36,689 nucleotides of DNA from Puniceicoccaceae bacterium. Its GTDB lineage: Bacteria; Verrucomicrobiota; Verrucomicrobiia; Opitutales; Coraliomargaritaceae. Positions 2,992-5,873 of the stretch are shown piece after piece. Location: assembly GCA_017854655.1 (NCBI GenBank), contig JAFMHF010000014.1, forward strand, positions 1-36,689, given 5' to 3'. The translations under genes were made by a program, and so were the position numbers. A model generated the notes under the pieces. It searched no databases. It was not told the origin of the DNA and saw only the letters and a list, made by a program, of their open reading frames with translations. The stretch's first letter is position 1. Every line of letters starts with the position of its first letter.

Positions 2992-3684
2992 ATGAGCGAT
3001 CCAAATTTTGAGCATTCCGACGGTAACTGGGACGAAACACCCAGCGAGCCACATTGGAATGAATACCAATGGCGCAAGTATCTAAAAGGTTCAGACCAAG
3101 ATACCGCCAAGTTTCTTTCGATCTACAACACTCTCAAGCACAAGCCCAACCATCTCGATGAAGTCGCCGTGCAGATGGGCTGGGATGCTGAAGATATCTC
3201 GCTGACCGACGAATTTAGCACGCCGGAGTCCGCAGAAGAGGCCGAGGCGCGTTTCGATGCCAACGACAATGCCCCTTACACCCTGCATCGCCACCCTGTG
3301 ATTGTGGTGACCCGCGCCTTGTACCGCTATCTGCACCAGAGCTGGGAACACTACATGGCGCACAGCCAGAATTATCTCTCGCCGCAGCTCTGCTGGAACT
3401 ACGCCAACAGCCTGCATCAGGCAGAAATGAACGTCCTATTGTCCATTCAGGCCATCGACCTTGGTGATTTCGGTCTGACCATTTGCCATCTCAAGAATAG
3501 CCTGAGTGCGCTTAACCAAACTTTAGCCCTACTCGACCAAGTTACACATTCGGACCCAGAATTCCTCGCCAGCTTTCGCCAGGAAAACCAGATCCGGATA
3601 TTTGACCTGCGCGAGATGTGGATCCGTGTGATGAGCGACTGCCGTATTGAGTGCAAGCGTCGCCCTGGCGGAGACCAGGACTAA
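2992..3684 (+). CDS. Hypothetical protein, 230 aa
   Basis: Long ORF MSDPNFEHSDGNWDETPSEPHWNEYQWRKYLKGSDQD..., followed closely by a co-directional gene; no family recognised. Confidence 0.75.
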   Translation: MSDPNFEHSDGNWDETPSEPHWNEYQWRKYLKGSDQDTAKFLSIYNTLKHKPNHLDEVAVQMGWDAEDISLTDEFSTPESAEEAEARFDANDNAPYTLHRHPVIVVTRALYRYLHQSWEHYMAHSQNYLSPQLCWNYANSLHQAEMNVLLSIQAIDLGDFGLTICHLKNSLSALNQTLALLDQVTHSDPEFLASFRQENQIRIFDLREMWIRVMSDCRIECKRRPGGDQD

Positions 3685-3705: not shown

Positions 3706-4527
3706 ATGCGTAACATACGCCGTTTCTTTGGTTGGCTTAAGCGTTCAGATCCTGCTCGCAAGGCTGCACGTTCACAGCTCAAAGCAGCTAAACGCGGGGA
3801 TCGTGAGCAATATCTAGCACTGGCCTCCAACTACATCGATCTGGCGCAGACGTTTTTCGGCTGCTCCTTTGCCGAACCGACCGAGCTGCGCATCGCGCGC
3901 GTCACACAGTTATTCAATGAGCTATGGCAAAACCTGCCCTACTCAGAGCGGCTCTCCGACTTCGAGTTCATGCTCGCCCAAGCCTTGATCGAAAGCACTT
4001 CCGACCAAGCCCTAACCACCTCAACTGAAGCGCTTGTCATCAAGCTGCGCATGCTAAGCCCACAGTCCCGCTTCGCATTTCTCGCCTACGCTTTTGGCAA
4101 CTGGCCGCTACGCTGGATCGCCCTCGTCATGCGCATCAAGCCAGTAGCCCTGCACCGCCTACTCTCCGAGGCACGTTGCGAACTCTGCAGTATTAGTTGG
4201 GAGTCACTCGCAAATGAAGAGCGAGATTGCCTCGAAGCCATCAGCGCCAAACTCGAGACCTGCCCAGATATTCGCGCCAACAAATCGCTCAGTAAACGCA
4301 GTAGCGCTTATCCCCGCGTCAAGGAGATCAAAGCCCACTGGCTAGAGCTCCGTTCCGATCTCGTCGAAGTGCGCATGCGCTATGTACTCAACCAAGGCGA
4401 ACGCGAACAATTACTCTCGAACATACTCGACGTAATTGCCGACAGTTCGATGCAGCGCCCCGCGCTCGTCGATCGCATGGTCAACACCGTGCATTTCTCA
4501 CGTCACTCGAAAATCAAAGTCTCGTAA
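3706..4527 (+). CDS. Divergent sigma-70/ECF-like protein (tentative)
   Basis: Order of segments resembles sigma region 2 (AAKRGDREQYLALASNYIDLAQTFF...LFNELWQNLPYSERLSDFEFMLAQALIE) and region 4 (LRMLSPQSRFAFLAYAFGNWPLRWIALVMRIKPVALHRLLSEARCEL). Confidence 0.6.
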   Translation: MRNIRRFFGWLKRSDPARKAARSQLKAAKRGDREQYLALASNYIDLAQTFFGCSFAEPTELRIARVTQLFNELWQNLPYSERLSDFEFMLAQALIESTSDQALTTSTEALVIKLRMLSPQSRFAFLAYAFGNWPLRWIALVMRIKPVALHRLLSEARCELCSISWESLANEERDCLEAISAKLETCPDIRANKSLSKRSSAYPRVKEIKAHWLELRSDLVEVRMRYVLNQGEREQLLSNILDVIADSSMQRPALVDRMVNTVHFSRHSKIKVS

Positions 4528-4535
4528 AAGTTACA

Positions 4536-5873
4536 ATGTTTCCAACACCCCGACAGCTCACCGCATTATTTTTCCTCAGCTGCATCACTGCAAGTGCCTA
4601 CTTACGGGCCGACATCGTCGCCGGCCCCATGCTCGGCCATATCGACATGCGCGAAGCCACCATCTGGGTGCAGACCGATGCCCCCGCCATTGTCCGCGTC
4701 GCCTACGCCGAGCAAGGGCAAGCCAATGCGCTGCGCTGGAGCGATGCCGTCCAGACTAGCAACGCCCTCAATAACACCGCGACCTTAACACTCAACGCAG
4801 TCGAGCCTGGCAAGAAATACAACTACCGTATCGAGCTCGACGGCACGCTCACCGAAGAGCAAAATACCTTAAAGACACCGACCAACTATGTTGGCCGCAC
4901 CCCGCCCCCCGACCTGCGCATTGCCGTCGGCGGCGCACACTATGTCACCGAAGAAGGCTTCGAGCCGCCTTATCAAATCCTCGGCGGAGGTTATGGTATT
5001 TTTTCCAGTATTCTTAGCGAAAAGCCAGAACTCATGATCTGGACTGGCAACACCGCGCATTTGCGCGACAGTGACTGGGCCTCTCAAAGCGGTACGCTCA
5101 AACGATTTGGTAAAGCGCGCAGTGTCTCCGAACTTCAGCCCCTGCTCGCGCGCATCCCACACTATGCCACTTGGAGCAACTCCGATTACGGAACCGTAAA
5201 CGCTGGTAAGTTTTACTCTTACCGCCAAGACGTCGAAGATAGCTTCAATGCCTACTGGCCCAAGCCCGTCGAAGTCGCAAGTTTAGATGGCATCACCACA
5301 CGCTTCCGCCGCTCAGACGTCGATTTTTTCATGCTCGATACTCGTAGCTATCGAGACGATGCACCCGCCAGCGACCGCCTGCCACAAATGCTCGGAAAAG
5401 CGCAGATCGAATGGCTTCGGCAGGAAATTATCAACAGCAGCGCGACCTTTAAAGTCATCATCGCCGGCGCACCGATTCTCAACCCTGCAGACAATCGCAA
5501 CAATCTCAGCTACGCCGAACGCGAGCACGGGGAACTCCTGCAAATGCTCCGTAACGAACGTATCGCTGGGCTCTTTTTCATCAGCGGCGGCAAGTATTAT
5601 GGCGAGCTCACCCGACTCGTGCAGGCCAACAGCTACAATCTGTTCGACCTCACACTCGGACCGCTCACGGCCAATTCGATAAACAATCAGGATGAGCTCA
5701 ACTTCTTCCGGATGCCCGGCACCAGCACCTTCGAACGCCACTTTGCCCTACTCGACTTCACCGGCCCCGAAGAAGACCGCGCCATCAGCATTCGCGTCAT
5801 GAGCATGGCAGGCACAGAACTGTGGCAACGCACTATCAAAGCCAGCCAGCTCCAACCCGCCGAGGCTGAATAG
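4536..5873 (+). CDS. Secreted PhoD/alkaline-phosphatase-D-like protein, apparently catalytically degenerate
   Basis: Signal peptide-like N-terminus LTALFFLSCITASAYLRA, then fibronectin-like PhoD N domain IVAGPMLGHIDMREATIWVQTDAPAIVRVAY, then MIWTGNTAHLRDSDW, FMLDTRSYRD, MLGKAQIEWLRQEIINSSATFKVIIAG, LFFISGGKYYGELTRL. Confidence 0.85.
   Translation: MFPTPRQLTALFFLSCITASAYLRADIVAGPMLGHIDMREATIWVQTDAPAIVRVAYAEQGQANALRWSDAVQTSNALNNTATLTLNAVEPGKKYNYRIELDGTLTEEQNTLKTPTNYVGRTPPPDLRIAVGGAHYVTEEGFEPPYQILGGGYGIFSSILSEKPELMIWTGNTAHLRDSDWASQSGTLKRFGKARSVSELQPLLARIPHYATWSNSDYGTVNAGKFYSYRQDVEDSFNAYWPKPVEVASLDGITTRFRRSDVDFFMLDTRSYRDDAPASDRLPQMLGKAQIEWLRQEIINSSATFKVIIAGAPILNPADNRNNLSYAEREHGELLQMLRNERIAGLFFISGGKYYGELTRLVQANSYNLFDLTLGPLTANSINNQDELNFFRMPGTSTFERHFALLDFTGPEEDRAISIRVMSMAGTELWQRTIKASQLQPAEAE

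Follow-up and report, generated by a model that had tools for sequence, protein, structure and literature searches.

In the structure of B. subtilis PhoD, one Fe3+ and two Ca2+ ions are bound, and the ligands are C180, D207, D265, D266, N271, N272 and D436 (PMC4223295). Activity is abolished by changing C180, D265, N271, N272 or D436, and drastically reduced by changing D207 or D266 (PMC4223295). A phosphatase fold can also persist in an inactive form, as in VPS29 of the retromer, which serves as a protein-interaction scaffold (PMC7539009). The window studied here, i.e. the whole analysed stretch of 36,689 nucleotides (contig C124 of a 2.3-Mb genome), carries a gene, c0, whose product is like B. 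subtilis PhoD (PF09423; 2YEQ) in its fold, N-terminal Ig-like domain, secretion and framework residues around the motifs, but has all of the strictly invariant Fe and Ca ligands replaced; it is also shorter, and its model is without the long C-terminal helix over the site.

Three other groups of proteins frame the comparison. Intact DUF7800-PhoD proteins of Bacteroidota/Ignavibacteria and Opitutales (L065-L071, L110-L131) have the same architecture as c0, and those numbered L065-L071, with 33-37% identity to it, are its nearest active-type relatives; they keep GSC, GDNxY, WDDHDYGPND and GDxH where c0 does not, and their genes, unlike most pseudo-PhoD genes, were in no case found to adjoin the gene c1 described below. 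Purple acid phosphatases (1XZW, 4DHL) are structurally similar to c0, but they are active dimetal enzymes with Asp, Tyr and His ligands that c0 is without. VPS29 is the nearest functional precedent, as a phosphoesterase fold retained as a scaffold, although it is eukaryotic, cytosolic and of another subfamily, and we claim no specific relationship to it.

Fold and metal-ligand positions of the protein

The gene, its domains and the four motifs in which the PhoD ligands lie are as follows, each substitution being given as PhoD residue and c0 equivalent.

4536..5873, + strand: pseudo-PhoD gene (c0), open reading frame of 445 aa
4536..4613, + strand: predicted signal peptide, residues 1 to ~26, from the sequence, orthologue N-termini and an AlphaFold helix
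4608..4865, + strand: N-terminal DUF7800/PhoD_N-like domain, residues 25-110 (PF25077, 3.6e-16, 59.5 bits)
4923..4943, + strand: motif 1, AVGGAHY, residues 130-136; Fe-ligand Cys C180 to A134
5040..5078, + strand: motif 2, WTGNTAHLRDSDW, residues 169-181; D207 to N172, Y210 to H175
5166..5201, + strand: motif 3, ATWSNSDYGTVN, residues 211-222; D265/D266 to S214/N215, N271 to V221, N272 to N222
5286..5696, + strand: PhoD match (PF09423), residues 251-387 (43.5 bits, cut-off 27)
5583..5606, + strand: motif 4, SGGKYYGE, residues 350-357; D436 to G352, H438 to Y354

The PF09423 score lies above the Pfam cut-off, which places c0 in the PhoD family by descent, and the PF25077 score is likewise above its cut-off. 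The N-terminus is hydrophobic and forms a helix (residues 5-21) in the AlphaFold model, at low confidence; a conserved lipobox Cys was not found among the orthologue N-termini, in which C16 varies. A search of the PDB with the single sequence gave no useful match, and a profile search was needed to reach the PhoD structure. The AlphaFold model, made with 17 relatives (pLDDT 83.1, pTM 0.86, with the lowest confidence, pLDDT about 60-75, in the pocket loops), had 2YEQ as its top Foldseek match (E 9.9e-22, TM 0.70), followed by the purple acid phosphatases, and thus predicts a PhoD fold for c0.

Ligand equivalences were obtained by aligning a profile of c0 and its relatives to the 2YEQ chain (chain offset 56). 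The N271/N272 pair was placed by motif, a shift of one residue relative to the ungapped alignment, and Y210 and H438 of PhoD were assigned as ligands through the motifs and by analogy with the ligand set of purple acid phosphatases. At the Fe3+ positions, occupied in active PhoD by Cys/Asp, Asp, Tyr and His, c0 has A134, N172, H175 and Y354; at the Ca2+ positions it has S214, N215, V221, N222 and G352, N222 alone being kept. The earlier note, made from the letters of the DNA, had proposed a PhoD-like scaffold with substituted motifs. The open reading frame is as it described, and the strings that it quoted are all present, namely GNTAHLRDSDW (residues 171-181), WSNSDYG (213-219), SGGKYYGE (350-357) and the well-kept surrounding residues, LPQMLGKAQIEWLRQEIINSSATFKVIIAGAPILNP. 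Its family motifs, given as GD-[NDT]-x-Y, W-D-D-H-D and SGDRHxxE, proved right and are substituted in c0, and the scaffold that it proposed is borne out by the PF09423 score and the 2YEQ fold match. To its three motifs we add a fourth, that of the Fe-binding Cys, in which the GSC of intact proteins is GGA in c0.

The losses are not spread evenly over the protein. Among 33 intact full-length homologues, invariance reaches at least 95% in 52 columns; c0 keeps none of the 7 ligand columns vs 33 of the 45 others (Fisher p = 4e-4), and over the window's whole family 6/231 ligand cells are kept vs 1113/1485 others. Ligand columns were thus lost while most other invariant columns stayed, so the changes cluster at the metal site. 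Judged by this alignment, essentially all of the residues that hold the catalytic metals are gone from the window's protein, a homologue of an enzyme without the essential catalytic residues, and we strongly infer that PhoD-type metal-dependent catalysis has been lost. A protein without the known ligands may still have some activity, and some annotated pseudoenzymes have turned out to be active (PMC12037411).

Distribution, origin and selection

A search of relatives found c0 orthologues in 34 of the 37 genomes of the window's family (f1), and the search was extended to the whole order (273 Opitutales genomes). We read 61 orthologues: 33 of f1, all full-length, 10 of f20, 15 of f16 and f23, and 3 of f21 and f3; the genomes are mostly metagenome-assembled. 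All 61 keep 0-2 of the nine ligands, vs 8-9 in 41 intact homologues. The loss is therefore seen in 33/33 full-length orthologues of the window's family, in three further families and in some genomes of two more. The earlier note had suggested looking for orthologues with the same substitutions, and had named intact D/N/H ligands at shifted positions as evidence that would tell against its reading: ligand loss is indeed found across the order, and no shifted set was found in the alignment. Parts of family f20 look intermediate, in that the Tyr or the His of motif 3 survives in several members (GNNIYLR, WSSHDYG). Searching the whole class gave one further divergent pseudo form (genome G088), adjoining c1, and, outside Opitutales, intact homologues only (genomes G327, G355 and G469).

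When the ligand columns are left out of the tree, a single branch sets all of the pseudo forms apart (SH-aLRT 97 for the full set of 102 rows); support for this clade was 99/97 with 83 rows, after removal of the longest branches, and 200 bootstrap trees recovered the clade in 100% of cases. The longest branches themselves (G063d, G056, G197) are placed less surely. Intact homologues fall outside the clade, and since the distant intact PhoD types of Opitutales also lie across the branch, the root was taken to be outside the pseudo forms. By this phylogeny, the pseudo-PhoDs descend from one ancestor that lost the ligands, and they are spread at the level of the order, over at least six families. 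This single ancient origin, the order-level spread and the linked operon partner described below go beyond the earlier note. Together, the intact proteins, the sister families and the window's family form a natural series for a three-metal enzyme that lost its metals once and was kept for another use.

Two other histories were considered. A loss in the window's family alone was rejected, the sister families being without the ligands as well, and several independent losses are not supported by the tree.

Within the genus, pairwise dN/dS is about 0.04-0.19, and change is slower in the former motif segments than elsewhere (pN 0.053 vs 0.082), which bears out the purifying selection that the earlier note had supposed. 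With frames open in dozens of species, the gene is one that selection maintains. Across f1, f20 and the intact homologues, 31 positions are at least 90% conserved in common, and the pseudo clade has invariants of its own (P317, G356-E357, T359 and E412, and mostly K353). The position of the motif-4 Asp is now a fixed G in f1 and f20, and on the evidence of this conservation K353 and G356-E357 of motif 4 are new constraints of the pseudo clade. At the former Fe site, the window's family conserves H135 (33/33) and H175 (30/33). In one genome of the same genus (G002), the pseudo-PhoD is split over two frames (L038, C197:3673-4954), either through an assembly error or as a broken copy.

The linked genes c1 and c4

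The pseudo-PhoD gene is the last of three genes in a tight, operon-like arrangement, with gaps of 21 bp between c1 and c4 and 8 bp between c4 and c0.

2992..3684, + strand: c1, first operon gene, 230-aa uncharacterised Opitutales core protein
3706..4527, + strand: c4, second operon gene, 273-aa protein, weakly similar to sigma-70 region 4

Gene c1 lies directly upstream in 51 of the 60 pseudo-PhoD loci with enough flank vs none of the 39 intact PhoD loci; the other nine pseudo loci have no c1 nearby. The gene is single-copy in 223/273 Opitutales genomes and present in 77/88 genera, and its product gave no Pfam or PDB match. The c1 model (pLDDT 70, from a shallow alignment) is helical and comprises an HTH-like N-terminus and a four-helix bundle; even its best fold match (E 0.11) is not significant. 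The similarity of c4 to PF08281 (0.0042) is below the cut-off; c4 occurs in 45/273 genomes scattered over Opitutales families and adjoins c1 at the loci inspected, and in the window's genus this degenerate sigma-like gene stands between c1 and c0. A promoter scan gave no informative result.

The linkage to c1 identifies the distant pseudo forms, at the level of gene order, as positional orthologues. It also suggests a functional link between c1 and c0, although it may reflect only the common ancestry of one locus. Because c1 is probably cytoplasmic and c0 is secreted, direct contact between the two is unlikely. The idea that c1 is exclusive to pseudo-PhoD was rejected: c1 is order-wide and occurs also where no pseudo-PhoD was found, and in families without the pseudo form, the 20 loci inspected showed no PhoD relative downstream of c1.

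Some arrangements depart from that of the window. In genus g28 of f20 (L036, L105, L145, L146, L218) the pseudo-PhoD lies away from the c1 locus, and in genome G055 it is ~170 kb from c1. Divergent from c1, the window carries genes for an acylphosphatase, an ABC-transporter ATPase and an ABC-2 permease (806-2854, - strand), and these neighbours of c1 recur in several other families.

Proposed role and alternative readings

We consider it likely that c0 is an ancient secreted PhoD-fold pseudophosphatase used for binding or scaffolding. Since six families owe the ligand loss to one ancestor while selection has preserved the remainder of the protein, c0 most likely works by binding or scaffolding and not as an enzyme. 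The earlier note, too, had put forward a periplasmic or outer-membrane binding or regulatory role. In this reading, a gene for a PhoD-like enzyme, already at the c1 locus or moved to it, lost its Fe and Ca ligands in one Opitutales ancestor, and at least six families then retained the metal-free fold under purifying selection. The remodelled pocket, which in the window's family contains the basic residues H135, H175, R177 and K353, may bind a ligand without cleaving it, perhaps an anionic or phosphorylated molecule of the envelope or extracellular space, or a partner protein. The protein would be a binding or scaffold component of the periplasm or extracellular space, expressed together with c1 (and c4).

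A re-purposed enzyme, in which the pocket has been rebuilt as another catalytic or metal site (e.g. from H135, H175, E143 and D180), would accommodate both the new histidines at the former Fe site of the window's family and the slow evolution of the former motif segments. We find it unlikely, however, given that f20 and f16, sister families with a different pocket, do not conserve H135 and H175, and that no new clade-wide set of D, H, C or E residues was found near the pocket. The protein could instead regulate an active PhoD, through a heterodimer with an intact paralogue or by competing for substrate; two intact PhoD-family paralogues are encoded in the same genome (L001 on G000:C1 and L002 on G000:C2), and pseudoenzymes often regulate their active kin (PMC11266112). 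Yet these paralogues are distant (about 23-25% identity) and unlinked, dimerisation is without support, and in several of the family's small genomes the matches comprise the pseudo form alone, which makes such regulation quite improbable.

A dying pseudogene family under relaxed selection would explain the lost ligands, some long branches in f16, f21 and f3, and the gene in two frames in G002. It is very improbable in view of frames that are open in all of the other genomes, dN/dS values near 0.1, well below 1, which contradict it within the genus, and the shared conserved positions and new clade-specific invariants. The idea of a still-active PhoD whose ligands have shifted or been mis-aligned could appeal to D217 and N222, which remain near motif 3, and to the invariant D180, but it is scarcely credible: the motif flanks are gap-free and conserved (W169, G171, W213, D217 and G351), so that the ligand columns are unambiguous, and in most rows nothing nearby replaces the Cys, the Tyr, the tandem Asp pair or the GD and His of motif 4.

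The binding or scaffold reading can be taken further, although we hold the following form of it to be rather doubtful: an ancient secreted receptor or scaffold, peculiar to Opitutales and derived a single time from PhoD through the loss of all three catalytic metals, might work in one pathway with c1 (and c4), in an envelope-sensing or envelope-assembly module without a described counterpart. The linked, uncharacterised core gene c1 is in any case a lead to the function of c0. We found no PhoD-type pseudoenzyme in the open-access literature, and an earlier description may exist.

The gene phoD is a marker of phosphatase potential in environmental surveys. The Pfam PhoD-like phosphatase profile matched 18 of 18 diverse members of the pseudo clade tested (E <= 0.001), and the top PhoD match of some Opitutales genomes is the pseudo form, so that counts made from the profile alone would overstate phosphatase capacity.
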